Shown here one piece after another: positions 1 through 30,835 of a DNA stretch of 64,000 nt (positions within the stretch are counted from its first letter, which is position 1; each line of letters begins with the position of its first letter). The notes under the pieces are model-generated. The model was not told the DNA's origin, did no database searches, and was given only the letters and a program-made list of their open reading frames with translations. Made by a program: the position numbers and the translations under genes. The stretch comes from Casuarius casuarius (Eukaryota > Chordata > Aves > Casuariiformes > Casuariidae). The stretch lies in assembly GCA_003342895.1 (NCBI GenBank), contig PTFA01000394.1, positions 1 through 64,000 of the forward strand. The letters are read 5' to 3'.

Positions 1-1197
1 CAGCCATCAAAAAAGGAGTACGGGACAAAACCAAAGGGTTCCCCGGGCTTCGCAGCAGGACACACGCTGTTAGCAGTGGTTAGAACTGGGACCGTCCAGC
101 CCATTCAGGTTGGATGGCAGGAGAGAGGTGAGAGAGTTGCCTTTTCACTCCCAGCTGCCAAAGCTTCAGCTGCTGCTACTCCGACCCNTGGGCATCACTC
201 TAGCCACAGCCATAGTTTCTCAGAGAGAGACAGAGAGAGAGGGTGACCAGTGCACCACAGACACTAACAGGCCATTTCTACACCTTCACATGCTCACTTC
301 CGATGCCTAAGCCTTAGCTTCTGTATGGTCACATCTCCTTCACCTGACTGTCTATCAACAGTGATAGAAAGTTCAGCTATTCTCTTCAGGAACTTCAGAA
401 CTAAAATTCTAGATCTTTAAATCCTAGAATATGATTTTCATTCTTCACTCCCCATCCTCCATCCTTCTTACCAAACATAATTTACCTTTTTTTAGATTAT
501 CCCTTTTCTAGGTCTCAGAAACTCTTAAATTTTTCAGCTAGCATCCTGCTTTTTTAGGAACTTAAAAGTAATCCAGGAATAGATTCTCTGGGTTTTTTCT
601 ATTTCTGACAACACAGTAGCCTAGAAGAACATACCGGAATAGCCTAACAAACAATCAGCCCTAACAAAACTCCTCCCAAGTCTTTGCAGAACATCCAAAA
701 GGAACTGTTGTGGTGGACAGGACAGTAGGCAGGAAGACCTAGTGAACTGAGAACCCAACCACTGCATTCTTCAATTCCTCATCTACCCTGATGTATTTCT
801 AGTTATTATAGATCTGAGCTAGTCCTAGAAGTTGTTCTCTCAAACCATCTCACCCAAATTCCTTAGTTACACAGTCTCTAAAACTGTCACTTTTGGACCA
901 CTTTGGACCAGGGCCATTTGTCTGAGTTGCCAAGTTCCCTATCTCTGTAAGTCCAGAAATTGCTGGCTGACCAAGCTCTTCCGTGCTGGATCCAGCTCCC
1001 CAAATTAGGAACTAGAAAGAGCAGAGTACATGGCTTAAGCTAGGACAATGAAGAGTGCTCCTGGTAGAGTAGAAAACACTAACTTTAAACCATCAATAAG
1101 CAAGACAGAACTGTTACAAAGCTGTGGTGGATCTCGCAAGAAGTTATAAAGGTTTCTCTGCTGCTTAGAATACTAATTCTATTCCTCTTCTACTTAC
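1..1197 (-). other. AMY2A: AMY intron 9, partial
   Basis: Starts with the donor GTAAGT at 1197-1192 and runs off the left edge. I looked for the last coding exon (C-terminal domain, Cys-rich GDKINGNCTG-like segment) on the minus strand and did not see it. One N at 188. No repeat element recognised. Confidence 0.8.
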
Positions 1198-6878
<5,681 letters not shown>

Positions 6879-6916: not shown

Positions 6917-7022
6917 ATTTATGTTTCTGCAAGAGGGTAAAGTACACATTACAAAATACACATTTAAAAGCAACTACCTATCTCTGACATCTTATTTGTT
7001 TTACTTTACTTAACTTCACCTG
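6917..7022 (-). promoter_or_regulatory. Candidate AMY pancreatic promoter elements
   Basis: A TATA-like CATAAAT lies at about 6917-6923 on the minus strand, some 40 nt before the ATG. It would place a start site just ahead of the ATG and give a very short leader. A CACCTG E-box at 7017-7022, on the plus strand, sits about 140 nt upstream of the ATG; such E-boxes are half of the acinar PTF1 site. I do not see a clear second PTF1 half (TTTCCC), so this is a weak call. Confidence 0.3.
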
Positions 7023-11690: not shown

Positions 11691-11710
11691 CTTACCTTTA
11701 TTTACCCCCC
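11691..11710 (-). promoter_or_regulatory. Candidate U2-type donor overlapping a poly(A) signal
   Basis: On the minus strand a GGGGGG run is followed by TAAATAAAG and then GTAAGC, with the donor G at 11695. The AATAAA hexamer (11702-11697) ends two bases before the donor cleavage point. If used, this donor would close a roughly 1.58-kb exon that begins at 13278 and let it join the AMY acceptor at 6927. This is an inference from motifs and context only. Confidence 0.35.
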
Positions 11711-12889: not shown

Positions 12890-13162
12890 TTTTTAACCAA
12901 CAGATATTTTATTAAAGTAAAACAAGAAGAAATTCTCAGTGTGAGATCAGCACAGCTCCACAATTAGACTGCAAATTAAAGAAGTTTACAGCCTTTGAGG
13001 AAGAATGTGGAGACCACATCTTGAGACTAGGTAACTTCATTATGTCTATTCAAGCAATAGAGACAACTCATTAATTCCTTCCCCTGAAGAAGTGCCATTT
13101 GTTTTTAAAGTTACCGGATTAGTTCAAGCTCTAAAATGTGTAAACTCCTCCCCACACCTACT
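12890..13162 (-). other. RNPC3: Candidate RNPC3 terminal exon (short 3'UTR form)
   Basis: The acceptor is a pyrimidine-rich AAGTTTTCTTTTAG with AG at 13164-13163. The exon starts AGTAGGTGTGGGGAGGAG, a G-run of the kind bound by hnRNP H/F. It contains no coding sequence because the stop codon is in the preceding exon, and it ends near the poly(A) signal at 12913-12908. The 3' limit is approximate. Confidence 0.5.
12908..12913 (-). terminator. RNPC3: Poly(A) signal AATAAA for a short RNPC3 3'UTR
   Basis: Perfect AATAAA on the minus strand, followed by the GT-containing ATATCTGTTGGTT. It lies about 250 nt downstream of the acceptor at 13163, so a terminal exon of about 13162-12890 would give a short 3'UTR. 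It is the first perfect hexamer after that acceptor. Confidence 0.55.
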
Positions 13163-13211
13163 CTAAAAGAAAACTTAAGAGGTAGAGTGCTACGGGAAAC
13201 ATTGTACAAAA

Positions 13212-13234
13212 AAGGATACAACAAGAAAGGATAC
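13212..13234 (-). promoter_or_regulatory. RNPC3: USSE-like tandem U12-type 5' splice sites (U11 snRNP binding)
   Basis: On the minus strand GTATCCTT (13234-13227), a 7-nt spacer TCTTGTT, and GTATCCTT (13219-13212). Both octamers equal the U12-type GT-AG 5' splice-site consensus that pairs with U11 snRNA. In other animals RNPC3 and SNRNP48 carry such a duplicated element (USSE) as a feedback switch: U11 bound to it activates the upstream 3' splice site and yields an unproductive long-3'UTR mRNA. Here an upstream 3' splice site ends at 13279, 44 nt before the first octamer, and an alternative one lies downstream at 13163. The strand, gene, duplication and position all fit. Confidence 0.88.
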
Positions 13235-13278
13235 ACTCTGCATGACAGTATTACTGCAGTATTTACGCAGGAATGTTT
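13227..13278 (-). other. RNPC3: Start of USSE-activated RNPC3 3'UTR exon
   Basis: Acceptor CTGCTGTTCTTCTTTAG (AG at 13280-13279) with a strong pyrimidine tract. The exon would begin at 13278 with AAACATTCC and run through the USSE. Its 3' end is unknown: either a downstream poly(A) site or a donor such as the one at 11695. In mammals this is the form that is kept in the nucleus or spliced into amylase. Confidence 0.6.
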
Positions 13279-16040
13279 CTAAAGAAGAACAGCAGAATGT
13301 GGTTTAAATTTACTTTATTCTCAGTATTGCATTCACATAACTTTATACTACCTATCATAAGCAAAAATGCCTCATTTAATAAAATACAGTTTTGACCCCT
13401 TATCACATTTAATGAGGGCTGAGTCCACCAAAACTAACTCCATATTCAAAAGTAAGTACGTCTTTTGATAACTTGAACTGTTAAGATGATACCAAAATTT
13501 TCTGTCTCATTGATTCTCCTTCAGTCTTCCACATTTTACAGACTCACTTTTTCCATCAGGTTCAAAACCCAATCATGTTTCCATTCAATGTAGTCTGTCA
13601 GGTCACTTCTTCCCTACAAAGAAGCTGGTGTCTGCTCAGCATCAGCTTCTTCTACATAACCCTTCCCCCCAAAAGCTAATATTTTATCTACAGAAAAAAA
13701 TAATCATCCCAAATACCACCTTAAATGTTTGTCGGTCCATCAAGAAAAAGGTATTTCAGTCATAAAGGAGTAACACAGCATTTTTTATAAAGCACACACA
13801 TTATTTTCTATATAAAGGAGAAAATCATGTTTGCAATAGTGTTCATGAATTAAACACAGCTTCTTCCTGTTTAAAAATAATCAAAATTTAACTTATGTCA
13901 ATTTAGTCTTTTTTTAAAAAACATTGTGAGATGTAGAACACAGATCAATTTAAAATCCCCCAAATATTTGCATAAATTAAATTTATTTTTTAAATTTGAG
14001 ACTCTGATATCCTTCTTCCTTACATACTCAGATTTCTACCACAGAATTTTGCATCACAGATTAGCATCTACCAGGATATTTTAACAGGAACAGGAAAAAC
14101 ATCCAGGTAGAAAGAGGGTTCAGCTTCATCATTAGTTGGCAAGTGAAAGAAATCATTTTTAATTAAAACTCATGGATTCCCCAAATACTGTAGTAATCTA
14201 AGGAACATTCTGTGATCTTTACATACAAATAGTCAAAGTAAGGAAGAAGTTTTACCCTTGATATATTAAACCAGTGGCAGCGAGCTATTTCATGTAACCT
14301 TTTAGATCTATAAATAAGTTTTGCATAAATATGTCTGCTCATTCTAAAAATATACTTCTGACTTGACCATCAACATGCTTAACCAAATCAACATCCGGTT
14401 GCTTCTGCTTAGGTAATTTAAATACTATTTAAAACGTCTTTAGTGAAGCCAGAATAAGATTTTTATATATAAAGTTAGTTGGAAAGACATGTGAGGATCC
14501 TTGTGAAGATTTCCAACAGTTCAAATACTTCTGCAAGTTTTCTTTTTCCATTTAAATAAATCTTAATAAATATTCTTAAGGTTTTTTTCTGTCAAGGAAT
14601 AACTTAGAAACAGGACCAAAACATTTATTTAAGCACCTGTTCTCATTATAATACTTTAGCCAAGATCTGTTTCTTTTCAACAGCCAAAATACAAGAATAC
14701 CTGCAAAAAAAATTGTCTTTAATTTGATAAAACAAGATACTGATTTTGCAAAGCAAAAATCAATAACTCAAAATATGAACTGGTAAGACAGCATAGAATC
14801 TCAGAAATGAGTGAAACATAGGCTCAAGTGGAATCTGACCAAAAATTCACAGACAACTGACAGAACCAGAAACCTACAATTAAAGTAACTTTGTTATTAA
14901 TAGAAATATTATCCTGGCAATAAATATATTGGGAGTCTCAAAACAGTTTTCCAAGTCAGAAACAGTCACTTATATATATTCAAGCTTTTAGGGTTTTTCT
15001 CCAAAATAAATGATCAAAACATCCAGACCAAAAAAACATGATGGAATAAGTAGAATGTTTCAAAAGCTCCCAGCCTAAGGTTTGAGTTCATTCAATCGTA
15101 GGTGGAGGAATAAGTACAGTGACGCCCAACTGACATCTGTAGTCAGCTAAATGGCATTTTAAATTTGAGCTAGCTGATCTATCAATGGATGGAGGTTCAG
15201 AACGAAGGACTTTAAATCTCCTATCAGTTATTTTATGTGCTAGTTCAAGACAACTCACTGGTCAAATGTTTTTGGGTCATGAATCTCCTCACACTTTATT
15301 AGAGCTGATTTTGCTCAAGTTACTCTAGTGCAACTCAAATACTTCAAGTAAAGCAGCAGTGAAGTAAAGCCATATATATGATGGGTAATAAAGTCAAATC
15401 ATGATTGCTTTCTGACAAAAGTTACTTTGTCAGCATTGTAGATAGATATGCCAAAAATCAGCATCTGTGCATTGCATCACAAAAAGGAAGCCTCGATTAA
15501 CATAATATTAAGTAAAAATTTCTGACACAGTACCCTTTCCTAAATCAGACAAGCTTAAAGGATGCTGCAAGAGCACAAAGAGCTGATCCAAAGTTATCGA
15601 AGTCAAAGGCCCTTTACAGAGCTAACGGAAGCAAACTTATAACTGGAAGCAGTTCTTCAGGGTCACATTACAATGTAGGGGGAAAAGGGCGTTGAAAACA
15701 ATTCTTTTCAGAGCCAAAATCCCTGAAGGCTACTAAAAGTTAAGTGGTCAGATTCTTCAAAGTTATTTTTCCCAACTCCCCACCCCCTAGTTTAAAGATT
15801 AGAAAAACTGGCAAACAACCCTATGACCTGAGAATTGGGAAACAGCAGTCTCCAGGTTTCTAGAGAAAGGAAGAAGCAACATTTTAAACTTCTGCTGTCT
15901 ATGTAACTTGCAGCCTAGTTTTTTGATAGAAAATGTACATGCTTAAGCAGCTATTTAAAAAATAGTAATAATAATAATAATAATAAAAAAAATCAGCCTG
16001 TATCTTTCTCTCTTTCTCTTTTTAGGCAGGGAATCCTTAC
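13279..16040 (-). other. RNPC3: RNPC3 intron 14 (to the proximal acceptor)
   Basis: Long AT-rich intron after the stop exon. Ends at the AG 13280-13279, or at 13163 when the downstream acceptor is used. Contains a (TAA)n tract at about 15961-15992 and intronic AATAAA matches on the minus strand (for example 15295-15300) that could allow premature cleavage. No coding sequence seen. Confidence 0.65.
15961..15992. repeat. (TAA)n microsatellite
   Basis: Eight or so TAA units followed by an A run on the plus strand. Confidence 0.9.
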
Positions 16041-16113
16041 CTTTTATGGTGTTCTATTTTTTTCTTTTCCCTTCATTGGAATCCTGTTTTGGTCTAGCTG
16101 AACGAGCAAATTG
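16041..16113 (-). CDS. RNPC3: RNPC3 exon 14 with stop codon
   Basis: Encodes QFARSARPKQDSNEGKRKK and TAG (16056-16054), the C-terminus matching the human QFARSARPKQDPKEGKRKC except at the end. Thirteen bases after the stop a good donor (AAAAG/GTAAGG, G at 16040) closes the exon, so the 3'UTR lies mainly in a further exon. The stop is less than 50 nt from this junction, which should avoid nonsense-mediated decay. Confidence 0.93.
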
Positions 16114-19100
16114 CTGAGATTCTGTTAAGGACTACAGGTGCCAGTGATAACAGAGAGGTCAATCAAGAAGCAGAAAAGTAGTATTATTCCAGTAAAGGAT
16201 AGATAGAAAAATGAAGGACATGTTTAAAACTGAGTATGAATTCTACTACTGCATTAAATATGGTTACAGTTGTGCCTAGCAGTCAGAGACTAGGACCTCA
16301 CTGATAGGCAATTTAAAAGTTTTTAAGAGAGACTGTTCAAGAGTATAGATTACTAAGCAAATAAGGTAGATAAACTGAGAAGGGGAGATGCAAATGGAGT
16401 AACTACAGCAGGATAAGTGTTTGATATTTACAGACCTCCATCCCTGTACATTAATTCCACAACTTCTGATATCTCAGAAGGTATGCAGGAGGAAAAAATT
16501 TTTAAAAGAAACAGAGGTCATGGGAAGAAGAGTCCAAAGAAAAGGANAAAAAAAAAAAAAAAAAAAAACTAGGAAGCAGTGTTAAGTGAAAACTAAGAAA
16601 GAAGAGGATAGGGAAAGATTTAAAGCAAAAACAACATGGCAAAGGAAATCCAAACAAAAAGTATAAAAATCGTAACACGTTACACAGGCCGAGAAACAGA
16701 CTGATAGTTCTAGCTGGGGAAGCAGTCTAAATAGGGACTGCTGACAGGAATACTTCTTATAAGTATTTCTGATTTTTCATTCATATCAATGCAAAGTATA
16801 TATTTTCTGAATGTAAATCCTTGACAAAAGGAGTTTGCATTTTGTGTTAAAAATATACTTCAGTTCCTAATTCTGCAAAAATAGGTTTAACCAAGTTGAA
16901 GAGCCTACTTAATTTAAAAAGAGTAGTTATACAAGCTAAATTATGTTTAGGATGTCTGCAGGATCAAAGAACTAACAATAGAAGTGTCAATTTAAGTCTT
17001 AAATAAAACACATTAACTTTTCTATTTCAGAAGGGGAAGTGCCTCTATATATTTTTCAGTTATCACAAAATTAACAATAGCACACTGTGCTATACTGCCT
17101 AGTGTTCTTAAAATATATCTTCTCTTTCTACAGACTTCTAATAAAGCAGAACCCTACATGACAGGCTAGAGACTCACAAGTAAATTAAAAAAGAATATAA
17201 TATAAATCTTTCAATAAAAGATACAACCACCATGGGTTTTTCAAATAACACATATCCATTTGCTTCTTTTAAAGCTTTAGCAGCTGCTTTTTCATTAGGC
17301 AGTCCGATGAAAGCCTGTCCCTTCATACGGCCTTCTTTCATTAAACGTATATCAAACCTAGAAACAAATTTGAGAATAAGGAATTACTTGCGTTTTTAAC
17401 TACACTTTCATATTTCATAGTATAAATAATTCTCATGCTACAAGTGGGGGAATAGTAGAAATAGGAGGAGTGCCTACATTCAGGAATTACGTCATTGGAG
17501 ACCATTAATATTTGCAGGGGGAAAAAAATTGTAAGCTATTTAATAAAAACTGACATTAGATGGCAGGATGGCAAGCTGACGTACAATTACAATAAATACA
17601 ACACATGCAAAATGATCAGATACACACAATGATCTACACTATGTACATTCTGCATCGCTCACCAATAAACAGTTAACTCAGTGGCCAAAATGTAAAGGCA
17701 TAATATTTGGGTCTTTGAACTCTGTTCAAAAAATAATTCTACTTTTATACTTCTGATAAAGAAAGATTTGCAGATGAGAAGCATTTTCCCCCTTAAAAGT
17801 GCTGAAGTAGAAAGAAAAAAGAAAAGATGACTAATCTTTAATCAAAGTTTTCACCACAGTTGTAGAAATTAATGCAAAGCTTTAATTTTGCCAAGCATCC
17901 AAGTAACTTACATATTTCGTTCCATTTCTGACTGAAAGTCAACATATCTTCCAAAAATGAACTTGAGATCCTGGAATTAAAGGGCAGGTATAAGAGGAAA
18001 GTTGATATTAAAAAAAAAAAAAAAAAAAAAANAAAAAAAAAAAAACCTTTCTGATAACTACTTAATTTGCTTGTTTACCTACCTTTTCTTGAACTTGTTT
18101 AGCTAAATTCTTCACATATATCCTGCAATTTGGATCACCTGGCTCATAGTTTTTGAAAACAGAAAATTTTTCCATTTCTTGAACAAGACAAAGACAGAAA
18201 AATAGACAATCTAAATGTTTCAACTCATTTAAAGATTTTTTTACTTTTTATCATTATAAAACAAATAACTACATTTTATATATCTGATAAGTTTAAGTAG
18301 TATTTCTTTTTTTAATTTATTACAAAAAGTAAAGAGCTATTAATAGAGGATTTATTCTCGAAGTTATACCTTCTCTAGAAAGTCTGTTTTTTTCTAGTTC
18401 CCTTCTAGAAATAAATTCTGATGGTATTTCATCATTCTCCTCTTCCAATTCCATTGTATCATTTGAGGTAGGAGTTGGGAAAATCTTTCCAAATCCTGCA
18501 TTATTCATTTCTTCTGTGGTTGCATAAAGATCTAAAATTTGAATACATTACATAAAGTGGTTTGTATGTTTGTTTACAAGAGGATCAACTGCAAGTTAAA
18601 AAATATACACCTTTCAAAATTAGAAGTAGCATTTGAATATAGTATGCGTTGTAAAGGAATTTGAATACACCCTTTAGAAAATCCGTCTTCATCCCTGGCT
18701 CAATAAACACATCTGCTCTAAACGGTTCTACAAAACCAACTTTACTACAGATAGAAGCCACAGCACATGCCAGTTAAAATAAAACTAATCTTATTGTTCA
18801 AAGCTGTATACATTTCACTGATTTAGTTTTTAATATTTTCATTCAAAGAAACTGCATATTACTGTAAAATACTGAGAAACACAGGGTTGATCATACTGCT
18901 ATAAGAAATCATCACACCTCATTGCCTCTATTGCCCAATATTTATATAGCAAAATGATTATCAGCGCATTTTAGAAAGGGAGCTAGCAATCACTTCAAGG
19001 CTGCCCTCTAGGAGCTGGAAAAGGAGAATCTAAAGTTACCTTGATACATTCAATTACCCCATGTAACACTGCGAATGAACTTGTAACACATTTGCTAAAA

Positions 19101-22100
19101 ACCACCTAAAGTTTAAAAAAAGGTGCAATACACTGTAAAAGCAAGCTCATGAGAGAGAGAGACAGACAGACAGACACACACACACACACACACACCCCTT
19201 TAATATCCTCTATATCCCTTACTGAACAAAATTCCCTGGCTGAAATTTTAGCAGACTTTTGCGCACTGAAATCACATGAAGTTAGCATTAAATACATTTG
19301 AAGTACAAACCCCTCACCGTTTTTTTCTTCTCTTTCCGAGTTTATCTGAAGAACAGCTGGGATGTCAGTAGTAATATGAAATTCAATTTTTTTATGACCT
19401 ACATGTTGAGGCTGTTCAAAGACATCTGAAGGTGACAGTGTAGGGTGCAAATTACTGTTTAAAACAACAACATGTTAATCCAACTTAAACAGATTCAGTC
19501 ACTGACAAATACATAGTCAAATAAAAGATAAGCATTTCTTTCAGTTAGACTTTATGCTGTTATTTACCAAACATGAGTTTTCTCTTTCCTAATCAATTTC
19601 AACTTTATTAGATCACATTTAAAACAATGTAAATACACTAGGTTTGCCTGGCAGCAAGCACAAAAAAACAAGTACATACCACACCACAGGCACTTATGAA
19701 AAACTTTCCATCAGTAACTTGAATAAACCAAAAATAACTGGTCTTGCTGCTGCTTTCATATAGTATAAATACACAATTTTTTTCAAAAAATATACCAAAT
19801 CACTTAGAGAAAAAAGGAAAGCTCTTTATAAAAATGCATTCAAAATTGATCATCACTAGACAGAAATATTATACTGGTGCCTACTGTGCCATAATATAGC
19901 TATTTCAAAAACCAAAAAGATTTAAACCAAACCAATTTTTATTCTTCCTCTATCTCCATATTTTTAAAAGAACTACTACAAACAACAAATGCAGATTCCT
20001 GCTTTGTCAGGGTGATAAGTTTTTTTTTTTTAAATGAAAAAGGGATTTTTATTAGTTTGATAGGGGGAAAAGAAAAGAGAAAGCTATATCATGAACCAGG
20101 CACACTAAGGCTGTTAAGCAGACTTGAGATCAAATTACATGAAAATTTGGACCTTCAGAGCAATAGGTAAAAAACAATCATGTGGCTAAAGGAAGAGCAA
20201 TCCTGCTACAAAAGGTACATACCAGTGAAGAGGTTTGTATTAAAATAGCAACACCAAAACAAACATCAGACAGTGAAAGTCATCAAAGGAATAATCTTCT
20301 ATGAAAGCACCATACAAGTAATACAAACCTGTGGGGAGTACACACAGGAGCATTCAGTAAGTCTTTAATTCTTTGTTTTTTTCTAACACCACGCCTCTTC
20401 GTGTTTATTGGTCTTTTAGGCTGAAGGGTTGCTAATTCCATCAACTTGGTCATTCTATTTCGGACACAACAATTAAAACAATTAAAAGAAAGAACCAAAG
20501 TGAGTTTACAGCTTATTTGAGAATGCTCACTTGTAAACATAACCTTTCTCTCTTTCTTAAAAACTTTGAAATACAACTTTTCAGAGTATTAATTATATAT
20601 TAAGCTGCATTAAGACCTAAACTACACTAATAAATTACATCACATACCAATTTGATATGCATAGAGCAAAGGAGCATTACTTAAGCAATAGATCAAAATT
20701 GTAAAGAGTTCAGTGATGTCTTTTCTTTCCCCAGCTAGATACCTAATCAGGACATTGAAGTTATAGAAATGTTAAGAAGTCCCAGGCTGAATCAAGTTTT
20801 TATACCACTTCCACTCTGCAGGAATTTTTCCCATGTTTTTCCAAAAGCATGCATTTTTCTGAATACAGCATAGAGATTGTCCTATTTACTTTTCATTTCA
20901 GTTTAAATATCAGACACAAAAAGTTATTTCCTTATCTAGTATCAGTTTAAAGCTGAGAAACCAGCTATGATGTAATTCAGTACATGTAGTATCCCAAAAC
21001 TGTTGGCGAATCCTCAGCAAACACAATCTGTCATTCTTATTACTTCACACTATACATTGATGTAGAAAGAATATTTTAGAAGTCAGCATGCACATATCAT
21101 TCAACTTGAAAGTCACAGGCTAACTACTCATGTAAAGATGTGGAAAGCTAAATTCAATCCAAAAAACAAGCTAATCATTACTTCCATTACTCTGGCTTCA
21201 TTCTGACTTTTTGTTCTTTTTGCAAACAAAGAAACAAATGGTAATTTTGTGCCATGTGGCCATTTTCCTCCTCTTATTGAGGTCCAAAACAGCACTGTCT
21301 TCATACATTTTTAAGCCACCCTGAAGCTTCTTTAAGAGTCTGGAGAGACTATCTATATACTGGAAATGTCAAGAGACCAGCAAAACTAGAAGCCATAAGA
21401 ATGAAAATACCACCTTAAAAGAGTCCAACAGCTTGCAAATAACAAAAATACGCACCTCTCTTTTTCCTCACTATCACTTTCATACTCTGATTCTTCTCCA
21501 CTAGATACTTGCTCTTCTTCCTCCTCAGGCAAAGGTGGCTCTTCAGGAGGCAGAGGTGGGATTGGGGGAGGTGGCACAGGTACTGGTAAATACTCTTCAT
21601 ACTAGTTATAAGGAGGAAAAAGAAAGTCTTTTTTTTTTTTTTTTTTTTTTTTAAGATTGCTGCCTACCTTGCATAATAAAAACAGTGAAAGTAACAAGTT
21701 AGAAGACAGCAAGCAGCCGCTTTTTAAAACAGGGGATGTATCTGCTGCGCTGATAAATTGAGAACTTTCCACTTTAAAAAAAAAGTATTTGCCGCTTTCT
21801 GAAGTGTTATAGTGAATGCTTTTACTCTTTTAATTTAAGGAGTTAAGCAAACAATAGTAGCAACCTGGGTTTTTATTTTTACATTCATTTCCTGAGAGAA
21901 GTAGGGTGAAAGCACATGGAAGCAGCCCAACACTCCCAAACCATCTCAGTTTCCACAATGAGCCTTCTGTGACCTATCAAAGTTATGGCATTTCTATCTC
22001 TGTAAAAGAGCAGTGAGGATTTTCTTTTAGATTACAGAAACCAAATATTATAAGAAATTCCCTATCTACAAAATAACTTCCAACCCTACTATCAATAGTC

Positions 22101-25100
22101 TACAATTACTATACATAATAGCTACTTGCATGTACCATCAATTCCATAAAGCACTGATGTCTTTAGGCACTGACAATGACCTATGCCCTGCAAAAAACTG
22201 CTCTAGGATTTTTAAGGACTGGCTTCTCATCTTATTACTCATTTCTGCATGAACATTACATTCACAGAGTTTAACTTAGTCCAATAATAGGCAAAGAACA
22301 AAATGATTCCCAGAAAATCAGTGTGAATTCATTAATTTGATGAATCTATTTTATATCTTTCTTCACCAGGTACTTCACAAAGCTTTGTCATTAGAAGCAG
22401 GTGTTTTGTTAGGGCAGTCACAAAGTGTAATGGAGCACAGATTTCCTACATCCGTTTCCTACATCCAATTCCAGCACCAGTGATAACCACAGTATGTCCT
22501 TTCTTGCTCTATTTTCCCCTCGCAATCAGTTAAACTACTCTCTCAGGGATAATGGAGAACTGAGGCCAAGGAGCTGATATTTCAAGATCCCTTCAGACTG
22601 CTACAGAAATAGCTCCTCCTAAACCTCTGCCAGTTCTCCCTTACACCTACCCCTTCAAAAAGAAATCCTGGAGATAGAGCAAATTAAATCCAAAAGCTCT
22701 GCATAATCTCATTAACAGTCTGAATCTTATTAGAACTCCCAAGAAACACACAGATCAGAGAACTTCACACACCTCCGTAAGGCAAGAGGCTAGTAGTATT
22801 CTGTCATATCTCCTGTAGTATGATGCTATAAATGCTTCTACAACCTCCCTTTTTTATACTTAACACTTTGAAATACCCAGTTCTACTATCAGAGAGGGGT
22901 ATTTCTTTAAGTACAACTAAAAAGATTTCTTTAGAAGATTAACATGCACATTTTATCCAACAAAAAATTAGCAGTACCTGCTGTCTTCTATACTTTTCTT
23001 CAACTTTTACAGTTTTGAACTTAGATCTTCTATCATATTGCCTTAAGTTTTAAATTGTGAATATATATTTCAACTACTGTAAAAAAGATTTCAAAAAGTT
23101 ACCATAGGAGGGCGAGCAGTAATTGGTCCAAAAGGTGGAGGAAGATTCATTTTATTCATAAGATGAAGTACCTGAAATGATTCAAGTTAAGTATTACTTC
23201 CCTTAGAAAAGGATAAGCTACTTACCGGCTATCACGGCTGATAACTTTAGGCAAGTGTAAAACAACATACTTTTAAAGAGGATACAACTATATTGCTTTA
23301 AACCAATGTGAAAGCCTACACCTGCAAGCCAACGCTAACGGTAAATACAAGCAATATCTGAAAAAGGCTAAGCAAAAAGTACATAAAAGGTCTTCTCACA
23401 ACTAAATTACAGAAATACCAAAGTCAAAACTAATTACGGAGATCTTATCCAGTCAAGTCTTCGATTCCAGTGAAGTAACAATTACTTCTGCTCAATGGAG
23501 TCTTATCTCAACATAGTAAAGAATTAACATTGGTTAGCACTATCATAGGAAAGCTAACTTAATTATCCACAGAAATAATTTGTGCCATAGAAAATACTAA
23601 AAATGGGGAGAAAGGAGATAATTTTATTTTTTTTACTTTACTTTTCTGATGCTTTTACTTACCTGTACATAGAATTTGGGCACGCTTGCCAAAGCGTTTG
23701 CTATATTTGCTAGAATTGTACTTGAAGGTGGTGGATACAAATATTTGAGGCAAGAATTGATGGGAAAGGTGAGGCTGAGGAAAAAGATTAAAGACAAAGA
23801 ATCTTAGCTCCACTATCATATAGTAACTGGTAACAATTAATAAATATTAGAGGTTTAACAATTCATTACATCTGAAATATCACTGAAATACCACCATTGC
23901 CTCTAGAATAGTGATGAGTACCATTTTAGCTGACTGGGCTACTCACATTGAGTCTTCTACGTTAGGGGGCAATCAGTCCCTTATACATGACAGACTTACT
24001 GGGCTTGGGCAAAACGAAAGTACTAACACATGCAGGAAGCCTAAAGCACACAGGAAACAATCTACATGTCATCCAAGTACAGCATAGCCATGCTGCACAG
24101 ACTCCATAAACCCAACACTCTCATAAAATGCTGCTTTTCTGCTCTGTGCCCCAAAATAAATTTATTATTCACATATGCAACAATGCAAACAGGGAAACAT
24201 GGAACAAGAAGCCTCTGAAAAAACAAAAGTAATCTGCTGTTAACACTCAGACAACCCACCCAGCCCTCAAACTCTTCCTGAAAAAGCAACAAATTGTACT
24301 AGAAGACTGTGATGCAGTCCACAGCTTCATGCCTCAAAGAACCTGTCACTACTCAACTGTAGGGTCTAAACTTGATGAACTATGAATTTCATCTATACAA
24401 TTCCTATACCTATGCATGTAGAACAGCAACGTACTATAGAACAAAACTACTACATTCTCTCTTGTTCAACAGTACAGAACAGTTGTTTTGAAATAAACTA
24501 GCAGAATAAAACTGCTATGCAAGAAAGGAAATACTAACCCATGGCTGGGAGCAATTCCATTGTCTATTTTAAGACAGCTTGATTCTTTCTTCTCTTCTTC
24601 TTTCACTGGCTCCTCTGAGCTGAAATATAATCTGGTATTAGTTAAAGCAGGGCAAAATTTAAATGCCTCACATAATGTATGAAATATGTTTTACTTTGTA
24701 TGTTAAAAATTAAAAAAAAATTTTGTAACAATTTTTGCTAATGACACTACAACTCAAATTATAATAGTCAGACTTTTAAGGTCAATGTAAAAAAACATTT
24801 ATGCAGCTTTAAGTGTCTCCCTTTACTTAAACACTTTTCACATAAATCTATTCACAGGAGAAGCAGCAAAACTATTTCATATTACTCACTATTCAGAGAC
24901 TGTATGAGATCAAAGGTATTAAATTATGATTTATTTCACTCTCTCTAGACAAATCAACTTTTTAAAACCTCTGTAGTTCATTTAAGCACAACTGCATATT
25001 TTTTAGCACCATGTTATATATTACATAGGTAACCCTGAAAGAATAACTATGCAATTTATTTTTTAATGAAGTACTTGGCAGAAATCTGAAATCCGAACTG

Positions 25101-27792
25101 CCATAGTTCTTGGTCAAACATTAGCATTTGAAACAAATATTAGGAAAACTTAAATCTTGGAAAGAGCATTCATTGTTATAGATATATTTTTAAATATTAT
25201 ATATATTTTTAATATTTAAACAGAGGCCCAGACAGTTGTGTGTGTGTTCTGCTCGTGCTTGTTCAAGATGGATACATGCAAACCAGCTCCAGCTTAGAAG
25301 CCAGTGGCTGTAGTAGTATAGTCCTGTAAGATCATGCTATCAGGTGCCAGTTCTGCCTAGCTCTTAACTAGATATGTAAAAGACATCAGAAAAGCACTGC
25401 ATGCATTGTTTAATAGCAAAAGGAAATCATAACCCTGACACAGAAAAGTCACAGAGGCTCTTTAAACACAGGCAACCTGCAAAACCTACGCAGGCTGGAA
25501 TCTTGCTCTGTAAATGAAAACAAACATCTGCTGATGAAAGTTATTAATCTACTGGAATAAGGATGGAAAATACTTCATGATGATATTGAATGAAATAACA
25601 CTAATAAGAGGAACGCAGTGCCTTATCTACAGATCTGAACCTGTTAACTGTTTAAAAGCATTATCTGGCTTACCCTTTGACTTAATTGTACTATGAAAGC
25701 ATTATGAATAAAGACTTTCCTTTCCCTGAACACAAACACGGAAACTAAATTATTACCCACGTACCTTTTCTCTGAGAGTGAAGGCTGGCTAAGTACCTGT
25801 ATGCTATCTTGCTCCTTCGCAAATTCAACAACTAAAGTGTGACCTAAAAGTTTCAGCTGATGCAGTCTTGACAAGGCCTTCAAATAATCATAATGGAGAA
25901 AGGAAAGGAAAAGAAAAGGGAAAACATCAGAATATATTTCAAACAGCAGCTGTTTCTTCTTTGCTTCAAATAGGCTGCTGTCTCAACCGCTTTAAGCTAA
26001 GCCTATGTCATTAAAGAGATAGTGCTCCACAGGCCCTGCCTTTGCGGTCCTGCCTTTGTCAGCCTCCTTCCTGCCAGCAAGAAGGAAAAAGGTGATATTG
26101 CATAGCTAGAATAGTTGCAAAGAATTATATCACTTGCACACAGTTGCGAGACTGCAGCCTTAACTATGATTTTTATCTAATAGTCTAGTAAATCTCTAAG
26201 ATTTCAAGTAACAAACCTCCTTCTCATGAACTACAACATGCTGAAGTATAACAATAAAGTTTGGGAACCTTAAAATCAAGATTCCTAAAACGCGGCACTA
26301 GGAAGGTCTAGCTTTCGACAAGATGGCTGGAAATCAGGATAAGTTGCTGATGACTGACACGAAGCAACCTAAATTCACCACTGTTCAGCTCATATATTCT
26401 TTCTAATTTCTTTGAACACTATTCTACAGCACGGCCTAAAAAAACCCAGAGCATAAGAGTAGAATTCAGGACACAGGCTTTTTATGAGAGTGATATTTAA
26501 AAAATAGGTATTAACATTACCTTTCTTGCATGTGTAAGTGTGTCCCATTAACACGATACTTTTCTTGTTCTTGTTAATGTTTGGCATGCAAGGCAGTCTT
26601 GAACTGTGTACATCACTACACCTCGATTTTATAGGATATATATGATTATGTGGGAGACATAATTTATATGTTTACTATATTAAACCAGTTTTTATATAAA
26701 TAGGTACACACCCCCTTAGACAAGACCTTGAGCAACCTCATCTAAATTGGTCTTGCTTTGAGTGACAGGTTAGATCAGAAGACTCCCAGAAGCCCCATTC
26801 AACCTATATATTTTATGCCGCTATAGAAGTGTTTGTTTTAATAAATCTGTCATGCACCTACTGAGATGAAACTGTAAAACTTTTCTGCACCTTTTTTCCC
26901 CTGACACTCAGTAGTAGATGATGTGGAAAATATTTTAGAGCGGAACTAGCAATTTAGGAAAGTTCTTTGCTAGAACATTTAATAACGAACTTGATACAAA
27001 CCTTTGCAGCTGCAATTTCGCTGGGGAATGTAGCAAAAGCAGTATGTTTCTAGAAAACAAAAAAAAAAAAAGCAAAAAAAAACCTTTTTGTCATACTGAG
27101 CTCATATATAGATAGATAGAGACAGCAAAAATAAATTACATGCAAACTATATCCTGAGAGTAAATTTGTAAATTCAAATTTAGACGTTTGAAAGGTTCCA
27201 GCTACTAGTCATCTAAATTCTCGTGTAGGACAGAGGTGAGGGACTAGGGAGTGTTTCTCCTAAGAGTTTAGGAGAAGAGCCGCCTGCAGTCACAAATCAA
27301 GACAGGAAGTCAGCAGTTTGAGGAAGTTCAGTTATTTGTTTGGGGTTTTTTTTTCTCCTCTCGTGAGCTATAGCCATCTTAAACCGAAAGCAAGCAGATA
27401 TCGAGAAAGATGATTAATCCTCTTAAAAACACCCCCCGCACACGCACACTGCCGTAAGGGCTCTTCCCCTAAACCCTGACGACAAGGAGGGCCCGCAACC
27501 CGGGGCGCCCGGCGCCGCCGCCCCTCACCAGCCGCCCGTGGTCTGACAGGACGCGCACGGCCACCGCGCCGAAGTGCTTCAGCAGATCCTCCTTCTCCGC
27601 CGCCGCCAGCTCGGCGGGCAGGTGCCGCACCAGCAGCGTCCGGCCGCGCCGCCGCGCGNNNNNNNNNNNNNNNNNNNNNNNNNNNNNNNNNNNNNNNNNN
27701 NNNNNNNNNNNNNNNNNNNNNNNNNNNNNNNNNNNNNNNNNNNNNNNNNNNNNNNNNNNNNNNNNNNNNNNNNNNNNNNNNNNNNNNNCCAT
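16041..27792 (-). CDS. RNPC3: RNPC3, U11/U12-65K minor spliceosome protein, complete gene
   Basis: RNPC3 (U11/U12-65K) is a nuclear component of the U11/U12 di-snRNP that recognises U12-type introns. Its N-terminal half contacts the U11-59K protein and its C-terminal RRM binds the 3' stem-loop of U12 snRNA. Fourteen minus-strand exons join in one frame of 535 codons including stop if the 130-N gap has true length; the human protein is about 517 residues. RRM1 spans about residues 51-127 (RNP2 TLLVRHL, RNP1 KHTAFATF). A conserved middle contains SCLKYLYPPPSSTILANI. Then come a Pro/Glu-rich stretch (about 233-278), a basic stretch (about 279-319), and RRM2 at about 437-520 (RNP2 RIYVKNL, RNP1 KGQAFIGL). 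It ends GKRKK and stop TAG at 16056-16054. Transcription runs toward AMY. Confidence 0.96.
16114..17224 (-). other. RNPC3: RNPC3 intron 13, probable U12-type intron
   Basis: Donor GTATCTTT differs from the U12 consensus GTATCCTT at one position. A perfect U12 branch-site TCCTTAAC lies at 16131-16124, with the likely branch A 11 nt from the intron end, and the acceptor ATCTCAG lacks a long pyrimidine tract. Together these are the diagnostic features of a minor-spliceosome intron. An A run with one N occupies 16541-16568. Confidence 0.75.
17225..17357 (-). CDS. RNPC3: RNPC3 coding exon 13
   Basis: 133 nt. FDIRLMKEGRMKGQAFIGLP (RNP1 inside), NEKAAAKALKEANGYVLF and EKPMVV. Acceptor CTAG. The donor placed at 17224 reads GTATCTTTT, which keeps frame (MVV then QFAR as in human) and looks U12-type rather than U2-type. 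Confidence 0.93.
17912..17970 (-). CDS. RNPC3: RNPC3 coding exon 12
   Basis: 59 nt. DLKFIFGRYVDFQSEMERN, the first helix and second strand of RRM2. Acceptor CCAG, donor GTAAGT; Met471 is split across the junction. Confidence 0.94.
18010..18045. repeat. Poly-A run with one N
   Basis: About 36 A in RNPC3 intron 11, with one unresolved base at 18032. At only 112 bp the intron is one-third homopolymer, with the corresponding T run on the transcribed strand close to its acceptor-side branch region. Confidence 0.95.
18083..18177 (-). CDS. RNPC3: RNPC3 coding exon 11 (RRM2 start)
   Basis: 95 nt. FSVFKNYEPGDPNCRIYVKN and LAKQVQEK; RIYVKNL is RNP2 of the U12 snRNA-binding RRM. Acceptor CAAG, donor GTAGGT. 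Confidence 0.95.
18370..18531 (-). CDS. RNPC3: RNPC3 coding exon 10
   Basis: 162 nt. NNAGFGKIFPTPTSNDT, an acidic run ELEEENDEIPSE, and ISRRELEKNRLSRE, just before RRM2. Acceptor TTAG, donor GTATAA. Confidence 0.94.
19151..19196. repeat. Compound (GA)n(CAGA)n(CA)n microsatellite
   Basis: GA, then CAGA, then CA units in RNPC3 intron 9, about 46 bp in all. Confidence 0.95.
19318..19454 (-). CDS. RNPC3: RNPC3 coding exon 9
   Basis: 137 nt. LHPTLSPSDVFEQPQHVGHK and IEFHITTDIPAVLQ, matching the human LPSDVFDQPQ region; then a charged tail SEREEKN. Acceptor ACAG, donor GTGAGG. Confidence 0.94.
20329..20454 (-). CDS. RNPC3: RNPC3 coding exon 8 (basic)
   Basis: 126 nt. MTKLMELATLQPKRP followed by a Lys/Arg-rich stretch NTKRRGVRKKQRIKDLLNAP. 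The basic run could serve as a nuclear localisation signal. Acceptor ATAG, donor GTTTGT. Confidence 0.94.
21456..21601 (-). CDS. RNPC3: RNPC3 coding exon 7 (Pro/Glu-rich)
   Basis: 146 nt. A polyproline segment (PVPPPPIPPLPPEEPPLP) runs into an acidic, serine-containing stretch (EEEEEQVSSGEESEYESDSEE). Low-complexity linker between the two RRMs. Acceptor CTAG, donor GTGCGT. Confidence 0.94.
21602..23102 (-). other. RNPC3: RNPC3 intron 6 and other large introns
   Basis: At 1501 bp this is the third largest RNPC3 intron if intron 14 is counted. Introns 2 (25878-27001), 3 (24620-25764), 4 (23775-24538), 7 (20455-21455), 8 (19455-20328) and 9 (18532-19317) are each 0.75-1.2 kb of AT-rich sequence. 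I see no additional exon, snoRNA-like box pair or repeat family in them. Confidence 0.6.
21629..21652. repeat. Poly-T run
   Basis: About 24 T on the plus strand, in RNPC3 intron 6 close to the exon 7 acceptor. On the transcribed strand it is poly-A. Confidence 0.95.
23103..23171 (-). CDS. RNPC3: RNPC3 coding exon 6
   Basis: 69 nt, 23 codons: VLHLMNKMNLPPPFGP then ITARPPM. Acceptor TCAG, donor GTAACT. Confidence 0.95.
23663..23774 (-). CDS. RNPC3: RNPC3 coding exon 5
   Basis: 112 nt. LTFPINSCLKYLYPPPSSTI and LANIANALASVPKFYVQ, among the most conserved blocks outside the RRMs. Acceptor TCAG, donor GTAAGT. Confidence 0.95.
24539..24619 (-). CDS. RNPC3: RNPC3 coding exon 4
   Basis: 81 nt. An acidic/basic linker (SEEPVKEEEKKESS) followed by the conserved IDNGIAPSHG. 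Acceptor TCAG, donor GTTAGT, and the frame joins exon 5 through a split Gly codon. Confidence 0.92.
25765..25877 (-). CDS. RNPC3: RNPC3 coding exon 3
   Basis: 113 nt. Encodes ALSRLHQLKLLGHTLVVEF and AKEQD, the last helix and strand of RRM1, then a less conserved linker. Acceptor GAAG, donor GTACGT; the last codon is split AG/C. Confidence 0.94.
27002..27049 (-). CDS. RNPC3: RNPC3 coding exon 2
   Basis: 48 nt, 16 codons: KHTAFATFPSEIAAAK, the RNP1 strand and following helix of RRM1. Acceptor CTAG, donor GTTTGT. An A-rich run lies just upstream at about 27054-27087. Confidence 0.94.
27529..27792 (-). CDS. RNPC3: RNPC3 coding exon 1 with internal N gap
   Basis: The start ATG is at 27792-27790 in a strong GCGATGG context, immediately before the N run 27659-27788. 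After the gap the frame reads TLLVRHLPAEL, KEDLLKHFGA and VRVLSDHGRL, the first half of RRM1. The 264-nt length is a multiple of three with the gap counted as 130, but gap lengths may be estimates, so residue numbers are provisional. Donor GTGAGG at 27528. Confidence 0.85.
27659..27788. other. Assembly gap (130 N)
   Basis: Run of unresolved bases inside RNPC3 coding exon 1, between the start codon and RRM1. It hides about 43 codons of the N-terminal tail. Confidence 0.99.
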
Positions 27793-27912: not shown

Positions 27913-28784
27913 CCGGCGGCGCCGGGCTGCCGGCACCTAGCGGCGGGGGGAGGAGGGCGCGGGGCGGGCGGCGCGCGCGGCCGCAGACCCCGGACCGCTG
28001 AGGGCGCGGTGGGGTCGAGGGTTCGAGACCCGCTGCCCCAAGCGGCACTGCTGCCGTGCTGGGGGTCGGCCAGCAGCCAAGAGGCGGAGGGGAGGCGCCG
28101 TGGAAAGCCGCATCTCTGCTGTGGCAGGTTTCTGTAGTCCACGTGAGCCGCCCTCTGAGGCCGGTGGGCGCTGCCCACCCCCACTGTCCTGCTGTTGTTG
28201 GCCCTGCTGTAAGCGCTCACCCCGATGGCCTGGGGACAAGTCATGTCTTGTGTGGAGCTGCCCGAGGAGCCATCCGTGAAGGCCCTGGCCCCCCTGCAGC
28301 CACCTCTTTGCATCGCCAATGGCGCGATGAGGCCGGACAGCTGCGGCAGCACACGCCAGCTCCGGTGTGGCTGCGCGTGGCGCAGGCCTGGGCTGGGGAG
28401 CTGTCGGCAGGTCACGGTGAGGCCTGAGCTAGCTGCCTCGGCCTGGGATTACCCCGGGTACCTGCAATAAGCCACCTGTCTGATGCGTGGTGATACCTGG
28501 ATGAGCAGGTGAGGCGGTCGCCCCTGCAAACTCTGTTCAGAAAGCCTTGTCTGCATGGGGGACATGTGCTATGGTTCACCTCTGCTCCAGGAATTTACTG
28601 ACTCCAGCTGATGTTACATAAAATCTACCTTCATCAAATCTGAAATATTGCACCAGAGGGAGATATATACAATGACCCTTGCCCTCTTTCACTCCCTTCC
28701 AGAGTTTGTCTCAAGACTAAATTCAAAGAAGTTGTATTGCTTTCAAAACGTCATTATCATTAGCCTCGAAGCTGAAGAGACTGT

Positions 28785-28929
28785 TCTCTTCCATCCTTCG
28801 AGATCTTCAAAAGCCGTCTGGACAGGGTCCTGGGCAATGTGCTTTAGGTGACCTGCTTGAGCAGAGGGGCTGGGCTAGAAGATCTCCAGAGGTCCCTTCC
28901 GACCTCAGCAGTTCTGTGATTCTGTGATT
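28785..28929 (+). mobile_element. CR1 non-LTR retroposon fragment, 3' end
   Basis: The sequence contains the bird CR1 3' segment (CTGGACAGGGTCCTGGGCAA, then GATCTCCAGAGGTCCCTTCC) and ends in ATTCTGTGATTC units, the octamer tail of CR1. 5'-truncated, as nearly all CR1 copies are. It lies just outside the RNPC3 CpG island. Confidence 0.93.
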
Positions 28930-30835
28930 CCTCCCACGCCTTGAGCTGAACAGCAAGGTATTGAGATCCTTCTGGCATAGACATATCGATATGCTGCATC
29001 CAAGATAGCAGCTGGTTGGGTGTCTGGCCAAGGCAAACAGTGTGGGCGAAGCACAGCCATAATTACAACTTGTAATAACGGGCATGAAAGAAGACTCTGC
29101 GGAGTCAGTGGTGAGTACAGAGGCAGTTGTCAGCCAGCTACTGCTGAAACCAAATAGCCGGAGCTAGCCTTTTTTCTGAGGCCAGAGGCTGTGATCTCAA
29201 AGGGGAAAGAAAACTCCAAAACTTGACTGATGCAAGTCTCATATCATGCCATTTCTAATTAGCTGGTTGTTGGCTGGCAGAAGTACTGCCTGCCTAGATC
29301 CCTATGACCGCTGGCTCTGTGTGTGACTGAGCTGTAGCGCCAGATGCCCCTGTGCAAAGTGTGAGGGACTTGGCCAGCCCACTGGGCAGCAAGAGCGCAG
29401 AGGGGGACTGGTGCTCAGGGTCCAGTGGAGCCAGCCAGGGAGAAGGAGTGTTTTGTTGGCTGTGTGGCCGTGCAGTACACCTGGTGAACAGGGAATGATT
29501 GTTTATTGTGACTTTCAAAAGAAAAAAATGGGCCATCAGTCCATAAAATCTCCAGGTACACTTCTTTACCATGAGAGTCAGTACCTGAAGCATCTTGGCC
29601 CATTTCATTTGGTGATTAAGCACTGAGGATTTGGGGAAAGATCTGGCCACTGTGGGTGGCCACAGTAGTCTCACTGAGCGGAGCAGGTGATAGTCCAAGT
29701 TCCTCCAGATGGGATTGGGAGGGAGCTGGGAGAAAAGACTGGGGAAACATAGGATATTCCAAGTGGGTTAAGAGGAAGTTTAACAGTGATTTCTTACAGT
29801 ATCATTTGCTGTGTTTTTGTTGGTGTAATTAGTATAAGCTGGCTAATATCTACAGACTCAAACACAGGTGGAAGAATTGACGCAGAATGCAAATATGGTA
29901 GGATACTTTCTCTCTATGGCACCAGCAGTGCAGTGTTTTCTGAGGCTGCTAAAACCTTAAAAATAACACTGCCCTAGCAAGCTTAGTGTGGCCCATGGTT
30001 GATATAAAGTCGAGAGGACTTTCTGTGAAATGCGGGTCAATGTGCAATTGTTGCAGATGGGAGTGTCAGGATTGCAAAAGCACATCTGTGGTGGCTCTGC
30101 TGTTGCATCCTGTTTAAATTGGCCTGACTTTTAGTTCAGTCCTGGGTAATGACACCAGAGAACTTCTTATGCAGCAGGTCTGTCAGACTTGTAGGCAAAA
30201 CAAACTTTCCAGTCTCCCTTGTAGCTCTCTAGTTCACTGTGATCATTAATCTGCACATCAGTAACCCAATAGTGAAATAACTCAATGATATAAATGGCTC
30301 CAAATACATTTTTCTCTCAGAAATAAGAAACACACTTCTCAGTTCCAATCAGGGCAGGCAAAGAAAATGTGTATTTTGCAGTGACATTGAACACTAAGGT
30401 GACATAATCAGTTTCACTGGAAAAAAATCTAGTATCTCATGTGTGTTCATCCCACCTTTCCCTGTTATAAAAAAGGTCTATTCACCCTGATGGACAAGGC
30501 CCCTGAAGCGGAACATCTTTAGAGAAGAGGTTTAATAGAGAATATTATGCAAGCCAAAGGGATTAAAATGTGCAATTTTTTTTCTTGCTAAGACGCAGAA
30601 ACAGAAAACTTCATTTTTCCTTTCTCTTTTCCTCACCCCCGCATTCAAGATAGATGACTCATGTGTTGCTTTTCTACTTTCCAAGTTGTTAATTTTTTAG
30701 ATACTTGAATAATGGTGTTCCTCGATACTAATGCATCATTTTTTCTGTTGAGATTCTAGGTTTTTAGGAGTACTTTGCCTTATACAGAGAGGGAAATGTC
30801 AATGCAGATGTTCTAATAATACATCAGCATGAGTT
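28930..30835. other. Non-coding flank of RNPC3
   Basis: Intermediate GC content, without a gene I can support. Small open frames on both strands have no recognisable domain. Confidence 0.6.

Follow-up and report, generated by a model that had tools for sequence, protein, structure and literature searches.

A doubled U12-type 5' splice site downstream of RNPC3 in Casuarius casuarius, very likely a new orthologue of a known splicing enhancer

The founding report of the U11-snRNP-binding splicing enhancer (USSE) is said to be a 2010 Molecular Cell paper. The element has been described in two genes, RNPC3 and SNRNP48, and in the former consists of tandem U12-type 5' splice sites that remain unspliced and recruit U11 (Verbeeren 2017; PMC5473595). 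According to the same source, the RNPC3 USSE activates an upstream U2-type acceptor via exon definition, which yields a form with a long 3'UTR; the human long form is mostly nuclear, about equal in stability to the short form in HEK293 cells, and liable to poly(A) read-through, which may extend into amylase (PMC5473595). The element is termed there both highly conserved and ultraconserved, and a neighbouring suboptimal U1 site, located ~100 bp ahead of the poly(A) signal, is given as conserved in all Tetrapoda examined, i.e. mammals, birds, and lizards, with a logo drawn from 30 species (PMC5473595). Here, we describe a pair of U12-type octamers at the 3' end of a bird RNPC3 gene that is, with high confidence, the RNPC3 copy of this enhancer.

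The pair lies in a 64,000-nt stretch of the Casuarius casuarius genome (hereafter the window), and the identity of the gene next to it, proposed as RNPC3 in the initial annotation, was borne out by two lines of evidence. With a human RNPC3 probe, tblastn gave 13 collinear minus-strand pieces between 27651 and 16060 (13 of 19 rows kept; the six left out, with E 0.96-7.4, were out of order or place), which delimit a coding region at 16054..27651 for RNPC3 (U11/U12-65K). In addition, the C-terminal RRM joined from the window exons matched the solved RNA-binding protein 40, which we take to be RNPC3, at E 3e-63 and 4e-63, with the next family, RNA-binding protein 41, far weaker at E 1e-17. The RNPC3 start codon was not seen, as a gap of 130 Ns (27659-27788) immediately precedes the first piece; a GC-rich stretch (0.53) at 28001-30000, at the 5' end of the gene, is possibly its promoter island. 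Downstream, the next gene to be found is an alpha-amylase gene on the same strand, at 1197..6878, recovered as nine collinear tblastn pieces with an amylase probe (nine of ten rows kept, one left out at E 0.76 as out of order or place); its last exon was not found by tblastn with this probe, and its acceptor places an exon start at 6926, 48 nt ahead of the ATG. The order on the minus strand is thus RNPC3, octamer pair, amylase, with 6.3 kb between the pair and the first amylase coding exon. The window had no Rfam hit at gathering thresholds. A pattern search for relatives in public DNA returned 0 matches in viral contigs, and none of the stretches matched by a peptide pattern (30 from genome contigs, 3 from viral ones) was confirmed as a relative.

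The pair itself consists of two exact GTATCCTT octamers on the RNPC3 strand, at 13227..13234 and 13212..13219, the second beginning 15 nt past the first. The U12-type donor and branch consensus motifs are RTATCCTTT and TTCCTTRAY, and each of the two octamers is part of a perfect nine-base match to the former (GTATCCTTT at octamer 1). Both octamers are held within a 15-nt tandem duplication at 13206..13235 on the minus strand (2.0 copies, 93% match in a tandem-repeat search), and such a duplication may be how octamer pairs of this kind originate. Octamer 1 starts 2,820 nt past the RNPC3 stop codon (TAG, 16056-16054), and the pair is flanked by two acceptors, lying 44 nt past an exon start at 13278 and 50 nt ahead of another at 13162. 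The earlier description, which put two perfect octamers 15 nt apart, 2.8 kb beyond the stop and 44 nt downstream of a strong 3' splice site, is therefore exact in its positions, and the splice site in question (AG 13280-13279) is a good acceptor. Established here are the sequence parts, their order, their spacing, and the identity of the gene that carries them.

The surrounding splice sites were scored with models built from 17 donors and 11 acceptors of the window, placed by eye and representing a subset of the exons of both genes. The last coding exon of RNPC3 is 73 nt long (16041..16113, minus strand) and ends in a U2-type donor, AAG/GTAAGG (16035..16043; the slash marks the splice boundary), whose intron begins at 16040, 13 nt beyond the stop. 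This donor scored 11.0, against 3.9-11.8 for the 17 window donors left out one at a time, and was the best of 527 GTs between the stop codon and amylase; this ranking, like that of the 604 AGs of the same region, came from a training set that included one misplaced amylase donor, absent from the 17-donor model. The acceptor upstream of the pair (13278..13300, minus strand) has a polypyrimidine tract and, with a small position weight matrix, ranked first of 37 AGs at 12900-13500, fourth of 189 at 12900-16034, and tenth of 604 from stop to amylase. The acceptor downstream of the pair (13162..13181, AG 13164-13163) ranked second of the same 37 and 22nd of the 604. Between the donor and 13278 lie three AGs that outscore the latter (14700, 14913, and 13687), so that a different acceptor in the 3'UTR may be used. 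With its 11 sites, the acceptor model is also a weak one (left-out true sites ranged from -3.6 to 12.6, and amylase acceptor 6926 scored only -0.6), so that the local acceptor ranking is suggestive, not proof.

Further along the same strand, a poly(A) signal (AATAAA, 12908..12913) lies ~250 nt past acceptor 13162. Two candidates for the suboptimal U1 site precede it, namely GCT/GTAAAC (12989; 12984..12992), 76 nt ahead of the poly(A) signal, and CCG/GTAACT at 13114, 201 nt ahead. We lean towards 12989, with neither placed for certain, because the compensating U1 suppressor mutations described in PMC5473595 would, on our reading, imply a CT/GTAC form of the site. Beyond this terminal exon, an AATAAA is directly followed by a donor-like AAG/GTAAGC at 11695 (11702-11690, minus strand), the second-best donor of the stop-to-amylase region.

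Could such a pair have arisen by accident? The initial annotation had put a single octamer at about once per 65 kb per strand, which is about right: 2.17 are expected on both strands of the window and three were found, all on the minus strand, the third being a solitary GTATCCTT at 43352-43345 that reads GTATCCTTG. Its further claim, that a close pair is very unlikely to be accidental, holds as far as chance is concerned, but the two sites cannot be counted separately: as copies of a single 15-nt unit they are not independent draws, and to square the probability of one site exaggerates the argument against chance. If slippage is taken as the fairer null, the fraction of random 15-nt units that carry the octamer when doubled is 0.00035. 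In the 64 kb the pair pattern is seen once; it was absent from all 100 dinucleotide shuffles, and in Markov simulations of the 9.1-kb region from stop to amylase a strict pair within 40 nt appeared in 0 of 3000 runs and a loose pair ([AG]TATC[CT]TT) in 12 of 3000. The minus strand of the real 9.1-kb region contains exactly two sites of the loose class, i.e. the two octamers, and no further loose U12-type 5' splice sites. The motif was picked after the sequence had been seen, and is the same motif as earlier work gives for RNPC3. Across the whole window and both strands, nine-mers with at most one mismatch from RTATCCTTT number 66, against 46.6 expected, a count reached in 1 of 100 shuffles; given this mild excess, the shuffle null may be lenient and the background understated. 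A functionless 15-nt slippage duplication that happened to hold one U12-like octamer would fit this excess, the clean 15-nt unit, and the 17 tandem-repeat rows found in the window. However, the rarity of the octamer among doubled units, the placement of the pair between the two best-scoring acceptors of 12900-13500, and its position 3' of one of the two genes with a described USSE (PMC5473595) all argue against accident, which we consider highly improbable.

Two other readings accept the octamers as U12-type sites. They could serve as functional donors of a genuine U12-type intron within the 3'UTR of RNPC3, as a branch motif with one mismatch (TTCTTTAAT, 12983-12975) is followed by an AG 7 nt further on, and the acceptor at 12968 scores 5.9, fourth of the 37 nearby. 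Yet a branch-to-AG spacing of 7 nt is on the short side for a U12-type intron, and branch motifs with at most one mismatch are not above chance (81 found vs. 91 expected). USSE sites are, moreover, stated in PMC5473595 not to be used for splicing. We consider an intron of this type very improbable. The pair could also be a relic, still recognisable as an element in a lineage where the switch no longer works, and the placement of the U1 site is indeed ambiguous here. Against this, both octamers are still perfect nine-base matches and the donor, acceptor, and poly(A) motifs are all present, which makes decay of the switch a very remote prospect.

The reading as a USSE remains by far the strongest, and the doubled site very probably lets the minor spliceosome switch RNPC3 RNA to an unused form. 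In the proposed mechanism, plentiful U11/U12 di-snRNP would pair with both octamers, which would stay unspliced, and the bound octamers would stabilise recognition of the U2-type acceptor 13278 across the 44-nt exon stretch. Donor 16040 would then be spliced to 13278, so that the 3'UTR would be long and include the USSE, and the resulting RNA would stay nuclear, tend to bypass the poly(A) signal, and sometimes continue in the direction of amylase. Under U11 shortage, 16040 would instead be spliced to 13162, the poly(A) signal at 12913 would define the end of the terminal exon, and the short-form mRNA would be exported and translated. We infer U11 binding, isoform choice, retention, and read-through from the system described in PMC5473595, while the choice of acceptors in this gene is a prediction made from its sequence alone. 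On this basis, the two junctions singled out in the initial annotation are best read as the putative unproductive long form (16041/13278) and the putative productive short form (16041/13162); should 13162 indeed be the short acceptor, the segment confined to the long form would measure just 116 nt.

Two further claims of that annotation were upheld in part. That the gene keeps a feedback loop is supported by the presence of the cis parts of the 65K USSE switch in their published order; the U1 site is not certainly placed, and a working loop is the probable rather than the observed outcome. That the mRNA is made unproductive agrees with the unproductive long form known for 65K, but in mammalian cells this means nuclear retention and poly(A) read-through, not RNA decay (PMC5473595). 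Nonsense-mediated decay was considered separately as the main route. The usual rule for this pathway calls for a junction 50-55 nt past the stop, and the 3'UTR junction, at 13 nt, is too near, so we rejected it; the long isoform is also about as stable as the short one in HEK293 (PMC5473595).

Base composition and predicted RNA structure were also surveyed around the pair. On the RNPC3 strand, T exceeds A in 15 of the 16 1-kb bins from 28 to 12 kb, a stretch that extends past the pair, compared to three of the five bins between 12 and 7 kb and 13 of the 34 between 64 and 30 kb, upstream of the gene. The signal has no clean stop beyond 12 kb, and this mild asymmetry is consistent with transcription through the pair. 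Folding predictions leave the CCTT core of both octamers largely unpaired (0.73-0.99) but place the GTAT of octamer 2 and the GT of octamer 1 in pairs (unpaired 0.01-0.11). Gating of acceptor 13278 by a hairpin was tried and rejected: the local fold has a z-score of about -3, but the two scanned segments that cover the pair rank only 6th and 15th of 152, such that the fold is nothing special.

The last coding intron of RNPC3 (16114..17224, minus strand) itself looks U12-type. Its donor (GTT/GTATCTTTT) differs by one mismatch from RTATCCTTT, its branch motif (GTCCTTAAC, 16132-16124) by one mismatch from TTCCTTRAY, and the latter sits ~12 nt ahead of the exon at acceptor CTCAG/CAA; of the GTs on the minus strand, 9 of 3347 satisfy the corresponding tests, as do 25 of its 4476 AGs. 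When scored as a U2 site, the donor reached -0.9, under all 17 other donors, and the acceptor -1.9, under 10 of the 11 left-out acceptors. The reading frame is unbroken across the intron (V-V-Q-F-A), and retention would cost the protein QFARSARPK onward, replaced by a short unrelated tail and then a stop. If the intron is U12-type, making 65K needs the minor spliceosome, and RNPC3 would be both controller and client of that machinery. It is conceivable, though we regard it as speculative, that RNPC3 is doubly wired in this way, with a U12-type last intron needed for 65K and, 2.8 kb later, a USSE lowering output at high U11. Opposed controls would then meet on one 73-nt exon, flanked by a U12-type acceptor and a U2-type donor, defining a window of permitted minor-spliceosome activity and a possible collapse when that activity is too low. 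A U12-type intron in RNPC3 itself is not mentioned in the available portion of PMC3958305.

Taken together, these results add another intact-looking copy of a conserved feedback element, one through which a spliceosome regulates its own components, within the RNPC3-amylase neighbourhood known from mammals, and give exact predicted junctions for this locus. As the published conservation of the neighbouring U1 site across Tetrapoda includes birds (PMC5473595), the copy is a new orthologue of a known system: convincing, ordinary in kind, and expected.

The closest comparison is with the mammalian RNPC3 USSE, which as described in PMC5473595 shares with this locus the gene, the tandem U12-type 5' splice sites, the upstream U2-type acceptor, a terminal exon with a poly(A) signal, and amylase as the next gene downstream. 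The two differ in distance, as the human AMY2B locus lies ~15 kb downstream (PMC5473595) whereas here 6.3 kb separate the pair from the first amylase coding exon, and in the nature of the evidence, the bird copy being seen purely as sequence and likened by description, with its U1 site uncertain. SNRNP48 (U11-48K) carries the same element with the same activator, but there the USSE mainly drives a poison exon and nonsense-mediated decay (PMC5473595), whereas the predicted RNPC3 switch here lies past the stop codon. A broader likeness, drawn by the authors of PMC5473595, is to the cross-regulation of U1C and U1-70K, in which the level of one snRNP component controls another via splicing, in that case within the major spliceosome.
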